The notes beneath the pieces are model-generated. The model was not told where the DNA came from and searched no databases. It worked only from the letters and a program-made list of their open reading frames with translations. The translations under genes were made by a program, and so were the position numbers. From assembly GCF_000744095.1 (NCBI RefSeq), contig NZ_JQLI01000008.1, positions 1,736,001-1,800,000 of the forward strand: a stretch of DNA of 64,000 nt, written 5' to 3'. Position 1 is the stretch's first letter, and each line of letters begins with the position of its first letter. Shown here in pieces: positions 4,355 to 49,195 of the stretch. This DNA comes from Cupriavidus necator A5-1 (GTDB lineage Bacteria; Pseudomonadota; Gammaproteobacteria; Burkholderiales; Burkholderiaceae).

Positions 4355-4711
4355 ATGCCTCGAGTAAAGCGTGGGGTCACTGCACGGGCCCGTCACAAGA
4401 AAGTCATCGACGCTGCCAAGGGTTACCGCGGCCGTCGCAATAATGTCTACCGCATCGCCAAGCAGGCGGTCATGCGTGCTGGCCAGTACGCATACCGCGA
4501 TCGCCGCAACAAGAAGCGCGTGTTCCGCGCTCTGTGGATTGCGCGTATCAATGCCGCGACGCGTGAGCATGGCATGACCTACAGCGTGTTCATGAACGGT
4601 CTGAAGAAGGCCTCGATTGAACTGGACCGCAAGGTGCTGTCGGACATGGCTATTCACGACAAGCCTGCCTTTGCCGCCATCGTCAACCAGGTGAAAGCCA
4701 CCGTTGCCTGA
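4355..4711 (+). CDS. rplT: 50S ribosomal protein L20
   Basis: 118 residues, full length, needed early in 50S assembly. It begins with the typical [18 protein letters not shown] and is rich in Arg and Lys in the N-terminal half. The start follows AAAGGAGAATTAC, a strong ribosome-binding site. It is followed by a strong terminator (4789-4817), so pheST may be transcribed partly from its own promoter. Confidence 0.98.
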
Positions 4712-4788
4712 TGCCGGCCGCGGTAGCGCGTAAGCGCTGCCGGGCAAGCACCGACCGCAAGGTCGGCCGCTGACCGCAAGGTCCGCTG

Positions 4789-4817
4789 AAACGGGGCTCC
4801 TCACCGAGCCCCGTTTT
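4789..4817 (+). terminator. Rho-independent terminator after rplT
   Basis: AACGGGGCTC and GAGCCCCGTT form a 10-bp stem with a 6-nt loop followed by TTTTT. Just upstream lie two tandem 'gaccgcaaggtc' inverted repeats (about 4752-4784). This splits the ribosomal-protein part from pheS, at least partially. Confidence 0.8.
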
Positions 4818-4968
4818 TATTTCGAATGCCGTTTTGGTTGCCGTGGCCACGCGGGCCGCGGCGGCACTGGCCGAGACCGCATTCGAAACGAACACCGCAC
4901 GTAGTGCCAACCCACGTCGGCCGGCGCGTTCCGCCCGACGCTAAAAAGTCCCACGACCGACCGCCGCC

Positions 4969-6000
4969 ATGTCTCAGGATCTGGATCAAATTGTCGCCGA
5001 CGCCCAGGCCGCCTTCGCTGCTGCCAACGACAACGCCACGCTGGAAAACGAAAAGGCCCGCTTCCTGGGCAAGACCGGCGCGCTGACCGAACTGCTCAAG
5101 GGCCTCGGCAAGCTCGACCCGGAAACCCGCAAGACGGAAGGCGCGCGCATCAACCAGGTCAAGCAGCAAGTCGAAGCCGCGCTGCAGGCGCGCCGCCAGG
5201 CGCTGGCCGACGCACTGATGAATGCGCGCCTGGCAGCCGAGGCCATCGACGTCACGCTGCCGGGCCGCGCGGTCAGCCGTGGCAGCCTGCATCCGGTGAT
5301 GCGCACCTGGGAGCGCGTCGAGCAGATCTTCGGCTCGATCGGCTTCGACGTGGCCGACGGCCCTGAGATCGAAACCGATTGGATGAACTTCACCGCGCTG
5401 AACAACCCGGACAACCACCCGGCGCGTTCGATGCAGGACACGTTCTACGTCGATGGCCGCGACAGCGAAGACAAGCTGTTGCTGCTGCGCACGCACACCA
5501 GCCCGATGCAGGTGCGCTACGCCAGGATGCATGTCGAGAAGTACGCCGGCAAGCCAATGCCGCCGATCAAGGTGATCTGCCCGGGCCGTACGTACCGTGT
5601 GGACAGCGACGCCACCCACTCGCCGATGTTCAACCAGGTCGAAGGCCTGTGGATCGGCGAGGACATCAGCTTTGCCGACCTGAAGGGCGTGTACGCCGAC
5701 TTCCTGCGCAAGTTCTTCGAGCGCGACGATATCCAGGTGCGCTTCCGCCCGTCGTACTTCCCGTTCACCGAGCCGTCGGCCGAGATCGACATGGCCTTCG
5801 GCAGCGGCAAGTGGCTGGAGATTTCCGGTTCGGGCCAGGTGCATCCGAACGTGCTGCGCAATATGGGCCTCGATCCCGAGCGCTATATCGGTTTCGCGTT
5901 CGGCTCCGGCCTGGAGCGCCTGACCATGCTGCGCTATGGCATCAACGACCTGCGCCTGTTCTTCGAGGGCGACGTGCGCTTCCTGCGCCAGTTCGCCTGA
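4969..6000 (+). CDS. pheS: Phenylalanine--tRNA ligase, alpha subunit
   Basis: The 343-residue catalytic subunit of the (alpha-beta)2 PheRS. The N-terminal ~90 residues are a helical coiled-coil tRNA-binding region. The class II core follows, with [19 protein letters not shown], the acidic [11 protein letters not shown], the RTHTSPMQ segment and C-terminal motif 3 ([15 protein letters not shown]). The start ATGTCTCAGGAT has only a weak ribosome-binding site but gives family length. pheT follows after 57 nt. Confidence 0.97.
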
Positions 6001-41982: not shown

Positions 41983-44670
41983 ATGTCCGCCGTACCAGAG
42001 CAGATTCTCGGCGCGTCCAGCGCCAACGACGCCGATCCCCAGGAAACGCATGAATGGCTTGACGCCCTGCAGGGCGTCCTCGCCGCTGAAGGCCCCGCGC
42101 GCGCCGCGTTCCTGATCGACAAGCAGATCGAATACGCACGCGTGAACGGCGTGACCCAGCCGTTCCACGCCGAAACGCAGTACATCAACACGATCCCGGT
42201 CGACCAGCAGGCCCGCATCCCCGGCGACCAGGACGTCGAGCACCGCATCCGCTCGTACACCCGCTGGAACGCCATGGCGATGGTGCTGCGCGCCAACAAG
42301 CACACCAACGTCGGCGGCCATATCTCCTCGTTTGCTTCTGCTGCGACCCTGTATGACGTCGGCTACAACCACTTCTGGCGCGCCCCGTCCGAACAGAGCG
42401 GTGGCGACCTGGTCTTCGTGCAGGGCCACTCGGCTCCGGGCGTGTACTCGCGCGCCTTCCTGCTGGGCCGCCTGACCCAGGACCAGCTCGACAACTTCCG
42501 CCAGGAAGTCGACGGCAAGGGCATCTCGTCCTACCCGCACCCGTGGCTGATGCCGGACTTCTGGCAGTTCCCGACCGTGTCGATGGGCCTGGGCCCGATC
42601 ATGGCCATCTACCAGGCCCGCTTCATGAAGTACCTGGACAGCCGCGGCCTGGCCAAGGCCGGCGATCGCAAGGTCTGGGCCTTCCTGGGTGACGGCGAGA
42701 CCGACGAGCCGGAATCGCTGGGCGCGATCGGCATGGCCGGCCGCGAAAAACTCGACAACCTGGTCTTTGTCATCAACTGCAACCTGCAGCGCCTGGACGG
42801 CCCGGTGCGCGGCAACGGCAAGATCATCCAGGAGCTGGAATCCGAGTTCCGCGGTGCCGGCTGGAACGTGATCAAGGTGGTGTGGGGCAGCAAGTGGGAT
42901 TCGCTGCTGGCGCGCGACACCAAGGGCCTGCTGATGAAGCGCATGATGGAATGCGTCGACGGCGAGTACCAGACGATGAAGGCCAAGGACGGCGCCTATG
43001 TCCGCGAGCACTTCTTCAACACGCCTGAGCTGAAGGCGATGGTGGCCGACTGGTCCGACGACGACATCTGGCGCCTGAACCGCGGCGGCCACGATCCGCA
43101 CAAGATCTACGCCGCCTACAAGGCCGCCAGCGAGCACAAGGGCCAGCCCACGCTGATCCTGGCCAAGACCATCAAGGGCTATGGCATGGGCGACGCCGGC
43201 CAGGCCATGAACGTGGCCCACCAGCAGAAGAAGATGCCGGTGGACGCGATCCGCAAGTTCCGCGACCAGTTCAATATCCCCGTTGCCGACGACCAGCTGG
43301 AAGAGGTGCCGTACATCACCTTCCCGGAAGGTTCGAAGGAACTGGAGTACATGCGCCAGGCTCGCCTGAACCTGGGCGGCTACCTGCCGGCCCGCCGCCA
43401 GAAGGCCGAAGCCCTGCCGGTCCCGCAGCTGGCCGCGTTCGAGGCGCTGCTGAAGGCCACCGGCGAGGGCCGCGAAGTGTCCACCACCATGGCCTTCGTG
43501 CGTATCCTGAACACCCTGCTGAAAGACAAGCAGATCGGCAAACACGTGGTGCCCATCGTGCCGGACGAGTCGCGCACCTTCGGCATGGAAGGCCTGTTCC
43601 GCCAGGTCGGCATCTGGAACCAGGAAGGCCAGAAGTACGTGCCGGAAGACCATGACCAGCTGATGTTCTACAAGGAATCGCAGACAGGCCAGGTGCTGCA
43701 GGAAGGCATCAACGAAGCCGGCGCCATGTGCGACTGGATCGCCGCCGCCACGTCGTACTCGACACACGGCGTGCAGATGATCCCGTTCTACATCTACTAC
43801 TCGATGTTCGGCATCCAGCGTATCGGCGACCTGTGCTGGGCCGCTGCCGACATGCGCTCGCGCGGCTTCCTGCTGGGCGGCACCGCCGGCCGCACCACGC
43901 TGAACGGTGAAGGCCTGCAGCACGAAGACGGCCACTCACACGTGTTCCACGCCGCGATTCCGAACTGCATCTCGTACGACCCGACTTTCCAGTACGAACT
44001 GGCGGTGATCATGCAGGACGGCCTGCGCCGCATGTACGCCGAACAGGAAGACATCTACTACTACCTGACGGTGATGAACGAGAACTACGAGCATCCGGAA
44101 ATGCCGGCTGGCGTAGAGCAGGACATCGTCAAGGGCATGTACCAGTTCCGCAAGGGCGTCGAGAACAGCAACGCGCCGCGCGTGCAGCTGCTGGGCTCGG
44201 GCACGATCTTCCGCGAAGTGATCGCCGCCGCCGAACTGCTGAAGAAGGACTGGGGCGTCGAGTCGGACCTGTGGGGCTGCCCGAGCTTCACCGAGCTGGC
44301 CCGCGAAGGCCAGGCCACCGAGCGCTACAACCTGCTGCACCCGACCGAGACCCCGCGCGAGTCGTTCGTCGCGCAGAAGCTGAAGTCGGCCCGCGGTCCG
44401 GTGATCGCCTCGACCGACTACGTGCGCGCCTTTGCCGAACAGATCCGTCCGTTCGTGCCGCGCCGCTACGTGGTGCTGGGCACCGACGGCTTCGGCCGCT
44501 CGGACACCCGCGAGAAGCTGCGCCACTTCTTTGAAGTGGACCGCCACTGGGTCACGCTGGCCGCGCTCAAGGCGCTGGCCGACGAAGGCGCGATCGGCCG
44601 CGACAAGGTGGCCGAGGCCATCAAGAAGTACAACCTCGACCCGAGCAAGCCTAACCCGATGTCGGTCTGA
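41983..44670 (+). CDS. aceE: Pyruvate dehydrogenase E1 component, homodimeric type
   Basis: 895 residues, the single-chain alpha2 E1 of proteobacteria (pdhA in R. eutropha usage). Decarboxylates pyruvate on thiamine diphosphate and reductively acetylates the E2 lipoyl group. The ThDP motif starts GDGETDEPESLGAI (about residue 237) and ends NLVFVINCN. QFPTVSMGLGP, VRTTKGYG-like KTIKGYGMGDAG and the C-terminal GTDGFGRSDTR are typical AceE segments. First gene of aceE-aceF-proteasome homologue-lpdA, with a strong CAGGAG site. Confidence 0.97.
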   Translation: MSAVPEQILGASSANDADPQETHEWLDALQGVLAAEGPARAAFLIDKQIEYARVNGVTQPFHAETQYINTIPVDQQARIPGDQDVEHRIRSYTRWNAMAMVLRANKHTNVGGHISSFASAATLYDVGYNHFWRAPSEQSGGDLVFVQGHSAPGVYSRAFLLGRLTQDQLDNFRQEVDGKGISSYPHPWLMPDFWQFPTVSMGLGPIMAIYQARFMKYLDSRGLAKAGDRKVWAFLGDGETDEPESLGAIGMAGREKLDNLVFVINCNLQRLDGPVRGNGKIIQELESEFRGAGWNVIKVVWGSKWDSLLARDTKGLLMKRMMECVDGEYQTMKAKDGAYVREHFFNTPELKAMVADWSDDDIWRLNRGGHDPHKIYAAYKAASEHKGQPTLILAKTIKGYGMGDAGQAMNVAHQQKKMPVDAIRKFRDQFNIPVADDQLEEVPYITFPEGSKELEYMRQARLNLGGYLPARRQKAEALPVPQLAAFEALLKATGEGREVSTTMAFVRILNTLLKDKQIGKHVVPIVPDESRTFGMEGLFRQVGIWNQEGQKYVPEDHDQLMFYKESQTGQVLQEGINEAGAMCDWIAAATSYSTHGVQMIPFYIYYSMFGIQRIGDLCWAAADMRSRGFLLGGTAGRTTLNGEGLQHEDGHSHVFHAAIPNCISYDPTFQYELAVIMQDGLRRMYAEQEDIYYYLTVMNENYEHPEMPAGVEQDIVKGMYQFRKGVENSNAPRVQLLGSGTIFREVIAAAELLKKDWGVESDLWGCPSFTELAREGQATERYNLLHPTETPRESFVAQKLKSARGPVIASTDYVRAFAEQIRPFVPRRYVVLGTDGFGRSDTREKLRHFFEVDRHWVTLAALKALADEGAIGRDKVAEAIKKYNLDPSKPNPMSV

Positions 44671-44837: not shown

Positions 44838-46502
44838 ATGAGTCAAGCGATTGAAATCAAGGTGCCGGATATCGGCGACTATGACGCCGTTCCCGTCATT
44901 GAAGTGCATGTGAAACCCGGAGACAGCATCGACGCGGAAGACGCGCTGGTGACGCTGGAGTCGGACAAGGCCACCATGGACGTGCCCTCGCCGCAGGGCG
45001 GCGTGGTCAAGGATGTCCGCATCAAGGTGGGCGACAACGTGTCCGAAGGCTCGGTGCTGGTGATGCTGGAGCCGGCCGGCCAGGGCGCCGCAGCGCCGGC
45101 TGCCGCTCCGGCCCCGGCCGCAGCAGCGCCGGCCCCGGCGCCTGCCGCCGCAGCCCCCGCACCGGCTCCGGCCCCGGCCGCAGCGCCCGCCGGCGGTGGC
45201 GGCACCATCGAAGTGAAGGTGCCCGATATCGGCGATTACGACGCCGTGCCGGTCATCGAAGTCCACGTCAAGGCGGGCGACACCATCAGCGCCGAAGACG
45301 CGGTGGTGACGTTGGAATCCGACAAGGCCACCATGGACGTGCCCTCGCCGCAGGGCGGCGTGGTCAAGGAAGTCAAGGTCAAGGTCGGCGACAACGTGTC
45401 CGAAGGCACGCTGCTGCTGATCCTGGAAGGCGCCGCCGCGGCTGCCGCTCCGGCACCGGCCGCCGCTGCACCGGCCCCCGCGGCCGCCGCTGCACCGGCA
45501 CCGGCTGCGGCCCTCGCCGCTGCCCCGGCGCCTGCCGCAGCCCCGGCTGCCGCGCCGGCACAGGCTGGCGTCACCGGCAAGGCCGCCCACGCCAGCCCCT
45601 CGGTGCGCAAGTTCGCGCGCGAACTGGGCGTCGACGTGACGCGCGTGCCGGGCACCGGTCCCAAAGGCCGCATCACCCAGGAAGACGTGCAGCAGTACGT
45701 CAAGGGCGTGATGACCGGCCAGGCCGCCGCGCCGGCCCAGGCTGCCGCGGCTGGCGGCGGTGGTGGCGAGCTTGGCCTGCTGCCGTGGCCGAAGGTCGAT
45801 TTCACCCGCTTCGGCGAGGTGGAAAGCAAGGCCCTGTCGCGCATCAAGAAGATCTCGGGTGCCAACCTGCACCGCAACTGGGTCATGATTCCGCACGTCA
45901 CCAACCATGACGAAGCGGACATCACCGATCTGGAAGCCTTCCGCGTCCAGCTGAACAAGGAAAACGAGAAGGCCGGCATCAAGGTAACGATGCTCGCGTT
46001 CATGATCAAGGCCACCGTGGCGGCGCTGAAGAAGTTCCCGAACTTCAACGCTTCGCTGGACGGCGACAACCTGGTGCTGAAGAAGTACTTCAACATCGGC
46101 TTCGCCGCTGACACCCCGAACGGCCTGGTCGTCCCGGTGATCAAGGACGCCGACAAGAAGGGCGTGTTCGAGATCAGCCAGGAAATGGGCGAGCTGGCCA
46201 AGCTGGCGCGCGACGGCAAGCTCAAGCCCGACCAGATGCAGGGCGGCTGCTTCTCGATCTCGTCGCTGGGCGGCATCGGCGGCACGTATTTCACGCCGAT
46301 CATCAATGCGCCGGAAGTCGCGATCATGGGCGTGTGCAAGTCGTTCCAGAAGCCGGTGTGGGACGGCAAGCAATTTGCCCCGCGCCTGACGCTGCCGCTG
46401 TCGCTGTCGTGGGACCACCGCGTCATCGACGGTGCCGAGGCGGCGCGCTTCAACACGTACTTCGCGCAACTGCTGGCCGACTTCCGCCGCATCCTGCTGT
46501 AA
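44838..46502 (+). CDS. aceF: Pyruvate dehydrogenase E2, dihydrolipoamide acetyltransferase
   Basis: 554 residues forming the complex core. Two N-terminal lipoyl domains ([19 protein letters not shown]) with lipoyl-lysines Lys44 and Lys163 in [12 protein letters not shown] are joined by long Ala/Pro linkers. A peripheral-subunit-binding domain follows ([19 protein letters not shown]), then the catalytic domain ending [15 protein letters not shown] with His527. The start follows CCCAGGAGACACTG. The gap to aceE is 167 nt. A large dyad element (46504-46615) lies directly after the stop. Confidence 0.97.
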
Positions 46503-46503
46503 A

Positions 46504-46615
46504 GCGGCTGCTTAAAAATGATTCTGGCGTCGTTGCGCGGCCTTGCCGTACCACTTGTACTGTCTGCGGCCGCGCGCCTAGCCAGAACCGCTTCGCTTCA
46601 TTTTGAAGCAGCCGC
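46504..46615. repeat. Large intergenic dyad element after aceF
   Basis: A nested inverted repeat of about 112 bp. Outer arms GCGGCTGCTT / AAGCAGCCGC, then AAAATGA / TCATTTT, then TTCTGGC / GCCAGAA with a 10-nt bulge, and an inner GCGCGGCC / GGCCGCGC. It looks like the multi-copy intergenic palindromic elements common in beta-proteobacteria, but I saw only one copy here. A further hairpin (ACCGGC/GCCGGT, 46623-46637) follows. Confidence 0.6.
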
Positions 46616-46680
46616 AACGCACACCGGCTTTGCCGGTGCGCGAAAAGGCTGGCGCCTGAGTCGAATAGGAGGAGCGAGCC

Positions 46681-47367
46681 ATGACTACTTGTGTTGTCGT
46701 ACGGAAGGGCGCCGAGGTGGCGATCGCGGCGGACGCGCTGGTCACCTTCGGCGATACGCGCCTGTCGCGCGCCTACGAGCGCAACCAGAAGGTATTCCCG
46801 GTGGGCGATGGCTTTATCGCGCTGGCCGGGACCACCGCGCACTTCCCGGTCATGCGCACGCTGCTGGCGGGCCTGGGCGAGGAGTGCCGGCTGGGCTCGC
46901 GCGACGACGTGTTCCGCACCTTCCTGAAGGTGCACGACAAGCTGAAGTCGGATTACTTCGTCAACACCAAGGAAGACGATGACGATCCGTACGAGTCGTC
47001 GCAGATCGTCTGCCTGATTGCCAATCCGGCCGGCATCTTCGGCGTCTACTCGTACCGCGAGGTGTTTTCGTTCGACCGCTTCTGGGGCATCGGCTCGGGC
47101 CGCAACTACGCGCTGGGCGCGATGCATGCGGTGTATGACCGGCCGGACCTGGATGCGGGCGAGATCGCGCGCATCGGCGTCGATGCGGGCGTGGAGTTCG
47201 ACAAGAGTTCGGCCGGGCCGATCGAGGTCCACACCGTGCGGTTGCACGAGGGCGGCACCACGGCAGCAGCAGCCGAGGATGCGGCAGAGACGGCGCCGGA
47301 AGACGAGGCGGCGGCAGACCACGCGGCAGAAGACAACCCGGCAACCAACAACGACGGCGCGCCCTGA
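46681..47367 (+). CDS. Betaproteobacterial proteasome homologue (BPH), Ntn-hydrolase
   Basis: 228 residues. The start [10 protein letters not shown] and [15 protein letters not shown] align with HslV and proteasome beta subunits: Thr at position 2 becomes the N-terminal nucleophile after Met removal, Asp18 matches HslV Asp17, and Lys37 is the likely equivalent of Lys33. [40 protein letters not shown] and [16 protein letters not shown] complete an HslV-like fold. The last ~45 residues are an Ala/Glu/Asp-rich tail. The sequence fits the BPH group known from betaproteobacteria. It lies between aceF and lpdA, 178 nt after aceF and 34 nt before lpdA, with a strong AGGAGGAG site. No hslU-like ATPase is adjacent. 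Its substrate is unknown. Confidence 0.85.
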
Positions 47368-47401
47368 AGCCAGATGGCTGGCGCGCATTGAGGAGCAAAG
47401 C

Positions 47402-49195
47402 ATGAGTGTGATCGAAGTCAAGGTGCCGGATATCGGCGATTTCGACGCGGTGGAAGTGATCGAGGTACTGGTCAAGGCCGGCGATACGGTCGAGATGGAA
47501 CAGTCCCTGATCGTGCTGGAGTCCGACAAGGCGAGCATGGACGTGCCGTCGTCGGCCACCGGCAAGGTGGTGGAGGTCAAGGTCAAGGTGGGCGACAAGG
47601 TCGGCCAGGGCGCGGTGATCTGCACCGTCGAAGCCCAGCAGGCCGCGGCCGCACCGGCGCCGGCGCAAGCCCCGGCTCCGGCGCAGGCGCCCGCACCGGC
47701 CGCAGCGGCCGCAGCGGCCCCGGCCCCGGCACCCACGGCAGCCACCCACGGCGGCGGCGCCGACATCCAGTGCGAGATGCTGGTACTGGGCGCCGGCCCC
47801 GGCGGCTACTCGGCCGCCTTCCGCGCCGCCGACCTGGGCATCAATACGGTGCTGGTGGAGCGCTACAGCACGCTCGGCGGCGTCTGCCTGAACGTCGGCT
47901 GCATCCCGTCCAAGGCACTGCTGCACAACGCCGCGGTGATCGACGAAGCCAAGGCGCTGGCCGCCCACGGCATCCTGTTCGGCGAAGCCAAGATCGACCT
48001 GGACGGCCTGCGCCACTACAAGAACCAGGTGGTCGGCAAGCTGACCGGCGGCCTGGCCGGCATGGCCAAGGCACGCAAGGTGCAGGTGGTGCGCGGCATC
48101 GGCAACTTCCTCGACCCGCATCATCTCGAGGTCGAGCTGACCGAAGGCGAGGGCAAGCGCAGCACCGGCAAGAAGACCGTGATCCGCTTCGAGAAGGCCA
48201 TCATCGCCGCCGGCAGCCAGGCGGTGAAGCTGCCCTTTATCCCGGAAGACCCGCGCATCGTCGACTCGACCGGCGCGCTGGAACTGCCCGAGGTCCCCAA
48301 CAAGATGCTGGTCATCGGCGGCGGCATTATCGGCCTCGAAATGGCCACGGTGTACAGCACGCTGGGTGCCGAAATCGATGTCGTGGAAATGCTCGACGGC
48401 CTGATGACCGGTGCCGACCGCGACCTGGTCAAGGTCTGGGAAAAGAAGAACAAGGACCGCTTCGGCAAGGTCATGCTGAAGACCAAGACGGTCGGCGTGG
48501 AAGCCAAGCCGGATGGCATCTACGTCAGGTTTGAAGGCGAGCAGGCCCCGGCTGAGCCAGTGCGCTACGACCTGGTGCTGGTGTCGGTGGGCCGCGCGCC
48601 CAACGGCAAGCGCATCAGCGCCGAGAAAGCGGGTGTGGCTGTGACCGACCGTGGCTTTATCAATGTCGACAAGCAGATGCGCACCAACGTGCCGCATATC
48701 TTCGCGATCGGCGACATCGTCGGCCAGCCGATGCTGGCGCACAAGGCGGTGCACGAAGCCCACGTTGCAGCCGAAGCCGCGCACGGCGAGAAGGCATACT
48801 TCGACGCGAAGCAGATCCCGTCGGTGGCCTTCACCGATCCGGAAGTGGCCTGGGCCGGCCTGACCGAGGACGAGTGCAAGGCGCAGGGCATCAAGTACAG
48901 CAAGAGCGTGTTCCCCTGGGCCGCTTCGGGCCGCGCCATCGCCAACGGTCGGGACGAGGGCTTTACCAAGCTGATCTTCGATGAGGAAACCCATCGCGTG
49001 ATCGGTGGCGGTATCGTTGGCACGCATGCGGGCGACCTGATCAGCGAAGTCTGCCTGGCCGTTGAGATGGGCGCGGATGCGGTGGATATTGGCAAGACGA
49101 TTCACCCGCATCCGACGTTGGGCGAGTCGATTGGCATGGCGGCCGAGATTTACGAAGGTACGTGTACTGACGTGCCGCCGCCGCGGAAGCGTTAA
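47402..49195 (+). CDS. lpdA: Pyruvate dehydrogenase E3, dihydrolipoamide dehydrogenase with N-terminal lipoyl domain
   Basis: 597 residues. Residues 1-75 are a lipoyl domain (Lys43 in [12 protein letters not shown]) and an Ala/Pro linker leads to the FAD-disulfide oxidoreductase. Motifs: FAD loop [14 protein letters not shown], redox pair [13 protein letters not shown] (Cys162, Cys167), NAD loop [14 protein letters not shown] and C-terminal HPHPTLGES with the catalytic His. It reoxidises the E2 dihydrolipoyl groups with NAD+. Fusion of a lipoyl domain to E3 is known in Ralstonia/Cupriavidus and Neisseria. The ATG at 47402 follows GAGGAGCAAAGC. It ends the operon at a strong terminator. Confidence 0.97.

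Follow-up and report, generated by a model that had tools for sequence, protein, structure and literature searches.

In the pyruvate dehydrogenase (PDC) operon of Cupriavidus necator A5-1, aceF and lpdA are separated by a gene for a proteasome-like Ntn-hydrolase, and the position of this gene raises the question of whether the encoded protein acts on the PDC enzymes or is a general peptidase that is merely co-expressed with them. This question was addressed by computational analysis of a window of 64,000 nucleotides, the whole stretch of DNA that was analysed (contig NZ_JQLI01000008.1, positions 1,736,001 to 1,800,000), the relevant features of which are collected in Table 1. The matches of AceE, AceF and LpdA to their NCBIfam families were all above the respective cut-offs, and residues 2–115 of LpdA also matched TIGR01348. 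The stop codon of aceF is separated from the ATG of the proteasome-like gene, bph, by 178 nt, while 34 nt separate the stop codon of bph from the ATG of lpdA. The gene order, the ribosome-binding site and the 34-nt gap had already been described in a first-pass annotation of this DNA and were all confirmed, as was its remark that no HslU-type ATPase is encoded next to bph, the neighbours being PDC genes. An internal promoter or terminator in the aceF-bph spacer was considered and rejected, since a consensus scan for one promoter type, which leaves room for non-consensus promoter and terminator signals, returned no promoter-like or terminator-like match between the two genes. One weak terminator-like match was located inside bph (47049–47061), two such matches having been found in the region versus 6.2 expected by chance. 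The bph region recurs at positions 4658–5341 (L002) of C9, a contig of 9139 bases in the same assembly (G000), with an unbroken identity over 1298 nt; the listed contamination of this assembly is 5.43%, and C9 is probably a redundant contig.

Table 1. Features of the bph locus; coordinates are positions in the 64,000-nt window.
Feature	Position	Strand	Basis
aceE, E1 of pyruvate dehydrogenase, homodimeric type	41983..44670	+	NCBIfam TIGR00759, 1650.8 bits
aceF, E2, two lipoyl domains and Ala/Pro linkers	44838..46502	+	NCBIfam TIGR01348, 737.9 bits; translation
Palindrome in the aceF-bph spacer, dispersed genus repeat	46504..46615	.	18-nt arms, 94% complementary
bph ribosome-binding site, AGGAGGAG	46667..46674	+	Sequence; 6 nt before ATG
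bph, proteasome-like Ntn-hydrolase, 228 aa	46681..47367	+	ATG to TGA; Pfam; PDB matches; AlphaFold2
Thr2 codon (mature nucleophile Thr1)	46684..46686	+	Invariant in alignment A3
Asp18 codon (mature Asp17)	46732..46734	+	Invariant in alignments A2 and A3
Lys37 codon (mature Lys36; proteasome Lys33 equivalent)	46789..46791	+	Invariant in alignments A2 and A3
Acidic pore loop EDDDD, residues 98–102	46972..46986	+	Alignments
Acidic Ala/Glu tail, residues 192–228, hypervariable, end ATNNDGAP	47254..47364	+	pLDDT <50; tail comparison
Putative RNA hairpin spanning the stop codon of bph	47357..47386	+	z only −0.82; consensus fold
lpdA, E3, N-terminal lipoyl domain	47402..49195	+	NCBIfam TIGR01350, 474.5 bits

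The protein encoded by bph was matched by the proteasome family profile PF00227 with 30.8 bits (cut-off 22.4). Its closest solved structure is 5ovu, the betaproteobacterial proteasome homologue (BPH) of C. metallidurans (E=6.5e-111), and the BPH of T. denitrificans, 5ovs, matched with E=3.4e-38. A single-chain AlphaFold2 model (mean pLDDT 74.9, pTM 0.73) had 5ovu_A as its best PDB match in Foldseek (E=6.6e-28, 86% identity), while pLDDT values fell below 50 at residues 22–34, 95–98, 101–107 (the pore loop) and in the tail from 192 to 228. Judged by these profile, sequence and model matches, the window protein is a BPH orthologue, and both the Ntn-hydrolase fold and the family assignment of the first-pass annotation were borne out. 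The reading as HslV or an HslV duplicate was rejected because the protein scored below the curated cut-offs (30.4 bits against 157.75 for TIGR03692, and 31.7 against 137 for the other) and a separate true HslV is encoded in the same genome (C8:505968–506480, 275.8 bits). HslV (ClpQ) shares the fold and the catalytic plan with the window BPH, but the latter has no HslU neighbour. The translation begins with MTTC and contains Asp18 and Lys37; a propeptide is absent, Thr directly following the Met. The proposed catalytic set was upheld by two alignments: Thr2, Asp18, Lys37, Gly50 and Ser139 were invariant in all 34 rows of A3, and in A2, a BPH family alignment of 31 rows, Asp18, Lys37 and Gly50 were invariant and Thr2 and Ser139 nearly so. 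Two of 160 BPHs, L204 and L215, both from within the order of the window genome, start with MST and would have a Ser nucleophile; L215 forms a long branch on the BPH tree. A Ser nucleophile has been described outside the Betaproteobacteria (PMC5777263, available sections).

Much of this was already in print, and neither the BPH family and its fold nor the PDC operon context is new. In the available sections of PMC5777263, Fuchs et al. (2018) described the BPH of C. metallidurans as a 7+7 ring with an active Thr1 and no ATPase partner, and reported two crystal structures, inward-facing active sites, an acidic pore loop (seen in the C. metallidurans protein), the loss of HslU-interface residues across the family and HslV as the ancestor of BPH. 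The same sections place bph within the PDC operon in C. metallidurans, beside argG in T. denitrificans and beside Hsp33 in Laribacter. The first-pass annotation had called the link of BPH to PDC unknown, which holds for its function only, the operon context having been printed there. Of the 12- and 14-mers that had been envisaged, the 14-mer is the published form in solution (PMC5777263); our own model comprises a single chain. The C. metallidurans CH34 protein (Rmet_1198) resembles the window BPH in its active site, acidic loop and PDC operon, but its crystallised chain has 197 residues in total, whereas the window protein ends in a tail of some 37 residues. The T. denitrificans BPH (5ovs, 5ovt), also printed as a 14-mer, belongs to the same family with 37% identity (Foldseek), but its gene has the argG rather than the PDC context (PMC5777263). 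What the present comparison adds is the confinement of the PDC linkage to one clade, 4-nt overlaps of bph with its neighbours and a Cupriavidus clade that lacks bph. None of the single origin, the loss within the genus and the overlaps appeared in the title or the start of the abstract of any paper listed by literature searches among open-licence PMC papers.

The breadth of the PDC linkage was assessed in several samples. A pattern scan of named genomes yielded at least 546 confirmed candidates, and the best 80 were used, a set biased towards PDC contexts because it holds the closest relatives of the window protein. Among these best 80 of at least 546 loci, which span Cupriavidus, Ralstonia, Pandoraea, Noviherbaspirillum, Collimonas and Glaciimonas among others, lpdA lay 3′ of bph on the same strand in all 80 and aceF lay 5′ of it in 79, the contig of the remaining locus (L096) ending 220 nt upstream; the aceF-bph-lpdA order, the conservation of which the first-pass annotation had singled out for checking, is thus kept in this set. 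BPH was detected in 117 of 300 sampled genomes of the order (E≤0.001) and in 13 of 397 genomes of a phylum sample (E≤1e-20), all but two of them from within the order. From 120 match rows of the order sample, 80 more distant loci were picked by hand, near repeats being dropped without a formal rule. Ten of these had the PDC context and 70 lay outside PDC operons, with 30 next to Hsp33, 22 next to argG, 6 next to an Hsp15-like gene (hslR) and 12 elsewhere (raw count before relabelling: PDC 9, Hsp33 30, argG 21, other 20). Labels such as Hsp33 and ArgG were assigned by eye and then checked by a family search with one representative per cluster; the ArgD label (cluster 7) and those of the 12 contexts classed as ‘other’ were given by eye. 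The representatives of Hsp15 (89.6 versus 148) and PpnP (63.8 versus 143) were both under their NCBIfam curated cut-offs, that of PpnP being above its Pfam cut-off. At many argG-context loci (for instance L197, L199 and L210), ppnP was seen between argG and bph, and yajQ, of the cyclic-di-GMP-binding family, just after bph. Another BPH (L253:5043–5618), from a genome of the same class and a different order, has Ser in place of Thr (MSTI) and is encoded between ribD and further riboflavin genes, a context that is not among the three named in the available sections of PMC5777263.

All 90 PDC loci, which include the named set (best 80 of at least 546), have lpdA after bph in the same orientation, and aceF precedes bph in each of the 89 that were measurable. 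With start codons chosen by script, the aceF-bph gap ranged from −4 to 209 nt (89 loci) and the bph-lpdA gap from −4 to 106 nt (90 loci). Two loci, L147 and L159, showed 4-nt overlaps on both sides of bph, while an overlap of the same length on the aceF side was present in L143 and L144, and alignment coordinates place one there in L250 and L251 too. The genes flanking the PDC operon mostly vary across distant families.

To place these contexts on a phylogeny, a BPH tree of 88 rows was built by a quick method from 86 BPHs (redundancy reduced at 86% identity), the window protein and an HslV outgroup, the very long branch of which leaves the root unsure. The PDC-linked rows formed a single branch of 26 rows (SH-aLRT 96), with L146 counted as PDC after relabelling from ‘other’, a label that was due to its short contig. 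The argG rows also grouped (20 rows, with two ‘other’ rows within the branch), while the Hsp33 labels require five changes and the hslR labels three, so that these two contexts are not of single origin. The single branch of PDC-linked rows requires no more than one origin of the linkage. Repeated independent linkage to PDC would have been strong evidence of function; such convergence was sought on the tree and none was found. Our reading is that bph would have entered the PDC operon once and then been retained for long. The link is stable, yet it is not shared with the other BPH lineages seen. Its long retention mildly favours a PDC-specific connection, and the PDC-linked clade could be a functionally specialised branch, the chamber of which handles orphan PDC chains or flexible linkers of the complex without an unfoldase. 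Such processing would be the reason why bph is kept between aceF and lpdA, in places overlapping both, and would go together with a single entry at the base of a clade to which Burkholderiaceae and Oxalobacteraceae belong. We give this combined scenario quite a slim chance.

The genus Cupriavidus itself provides a further comparison. A bph match was present in 50 of 60 genus genomes, that of the window included, and in 46 of the 54 of good quality. In six of the ten genomes without a match (seven loci, with two copies in G032), aceF directly precedes lpdA at a distance of 24–25 nt, or 64 nt in G001. For two others, G012 (54% complete) and G048 (78% complete), aceF was not matched at E≤1e-60, and in G020 and G037 the PDC aceF was recovered only as an N-terminal piece. 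On an lpdA tree the seven bph-less loci clustered in one clade inside the bph-bearing genus (SH-aLRT 98), and this clustering fits a single loss of bph. The G001 spacer contains a stretch that, by eye, resembles the last bph codons. The Cupriavidus genomes of L230–L236 have no bph, and aceF adjoins lpdA. BPH was also absent from all seven sampled genomes of other genera coded as the family of the window genome, where lpdA adjoins aceF; Ralstonia and Pandoraea, both BPH carriers, are not evidently included in this sample.

The bph-less Cupriavidus clade constitutes a natural knock-out set for testing a PDC-related role. The role in PDC turnover suggested by the first-pass annotation found no support: the aceF-lpdA junction of this clade is intact without bph, and most of the more distant loci have other contexts. 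In addition, pull-downs in C. metallidurans, in which tagged bait was used in extracts and a crosslinker was also applied, contained zero PDC subunits, and carbonylation patterns were unaffected by BPH, according to the available sections of PMC5777263. The same observations, together with the seven BPH-free genomes of the family sample, weigh against BPH being a dedicated quality-control protease of PDC that trims or removes orphan, oxidised or unfolded E1, E2 and E3 chains, for instance by pulling flexible linker segments of AceF and LpdA into its chamber without the help of an unfoldase. Such a protease would fit the retention of aceF-bph-lpdA across one clade of Burkholderiaceae, Oxalobacteraceae and further coded families despite mostly different outer genes, the 4-nt overlaps with aceF and lpdA, and the Ala/Pro-rich linkers that both proteins contain. 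On balance we regard it as unlikely.

We compared the constraint on BPH with that on the PDC enzymes, measured as the median identity to the window protein of matches covering at least 90% of the query. The medians for the BPH core, AceE and LpdA were 91.0, 95.7 and 93.1 in Cupriavidus, 80.9, 88.2 and 86.7 in Ralstonia, 72.3, 80.1 and 80.5 in Pandoraea, 71.5, 65.0 and 75.4 in Noviherbaspirillum, 70.2, 64.4 and 58.2 in Collimonas, and 56.8, 65.9 and 64.9 at the ten more distant loci. By this measure BPH is clearly constrained, mostly somewhat less than the PDC enzymes and above AceE in two groups. This bears on the possibility that the linkage is a neutral accident, in which bph landed once in the PDC operon, rarely leaves it and has a weak or vestigial function of its own. 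One origin of the PDC context is indeed enough on the tree, and one Cupriavidus clade lacks the gene; however, a constraint near that of the PDC enzymes in several groups, a conserved active site and overlaps with aceF that suggest coupling in some families all speak against it, and we find the accident quite improbable.

The explanation that we prefer, and consider probable, is that BPH is an ATP-independent peptidase chamber that would be co-expressed with PDC and have a general rather than a PDC-dedicated role. As we picture it, BPH would be a threonine peptidase of HslV ancestry, built as a 7+7 double ring and most likely encoded on the same message as PDC. By similarity to its relatives, the initiator Met would be removed, and Thr1, aided by Asp17 and Lys36, would face a closed chamber, the entry of which would be lined by an acidic loop like that printed for the C. 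metallidurans and T. denitrificans proteins. Because there is no ATPase partner, most likely only peptides or already unfolded segments would enter. The available sections of PMC8665760 likewise know of no interacting unfoldase and suggest a role like that of an uncapped proteasome. After a single entry into the PDC operon, BPH would be made whenever PDC is made, the position being a route to steady, growth-linked expression and not a sign of a dedicated PDC substrate. A general peptidase is the likelier of the two because other BPH lineages with the same core lie beside hslO/hslR, argG or riboflavin genes, and because of the negative PDC pull-down. Against it stands that BPH was inert on peptides and casein (PMC5777263, available sections), and the identity of BPH lies below that of AceE in Cupriavidus, Ralstonia, Pandoraea and the distant families.

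The inertness in published protease assays could also mean that BPH is no protease in the cell but a transpeptidase, a ligase-like or an otherwise highly specific enzyme, given that epoxomicin and MG132 bind covalently at its active site, epoxomicin having revealed the Thr nucleophile of both the C. metallidurans and the T. denitrificans BPH (PMC5777263, available sections). There is a precedent in connectase, a monomeric homologue that acts as a ligase (PMC8665760, available sections). A closed ring with inward-facing sites (PMC5777263) would, however, suit degradation better than the ligation of folded proteins, and the full proteasome-type catalytic set is conserved, which makes this alternative very unlikely. 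For BPH, a proteasome relative with solved structures, the comparison of contexts sharpens the question of the substrate.

The acidic tail could, according to the first-pass annotation, recruit a partner. Within Cupriavidus, its length from residue 192 varies between 7 and 43 residues and its middle is unconserved, while the end reads ATNNDGAP or ATNNDGAA in 43 of 57 rows, which came from two sources overlapping in organism (L026, L027 and L030 were dropped, as the script found no start). Neither ten Ralstonia-type rows (L089–L098) nor the remaining 30 rows of A2 have a comparable tail; some of the latter carry short extensions. The tail is lineage-restricted, predicted to be disordered and not a general feature of BPH; partner recruitment by it is unsupported, and a conserved recruiting arm was rejected beyond Cupriavidus. 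An RNA hairpin was suspected as a possible cause of the well-kept tail ends. In Cupriavidus, this putative hairpin would precede the ribosome-binding site of lpdA, with outer arms at 47357–47363 and 47380–47386 and inner arms at 47368–47371 and 47376–47379. In an alignment that omitted four C. basilensis-type rows (L076, L077, L078 and L086), its consensus comprised seven pairs, zero of them changed on both sides; by eye, the inner arms vary yet stay complementary. The fold of the window sequence itself scored hardly above shuffles (z −0.82).

The palindrome in the aceF-bph spacer, of about 110 nt, gave an RNA fold z of −6.84. At E≤1e-6, copies of it occur in 36 of the 60 genus genomes, several of which carry at least 14. 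In the window's own genome, besides the duplicate contig, it recurs once almost in full and once as a short partial match. L070, L079, L080, L081 and L085 carry the repeat in this spacer, L082 has a diverged copy there, and L060–L069 are free of it.
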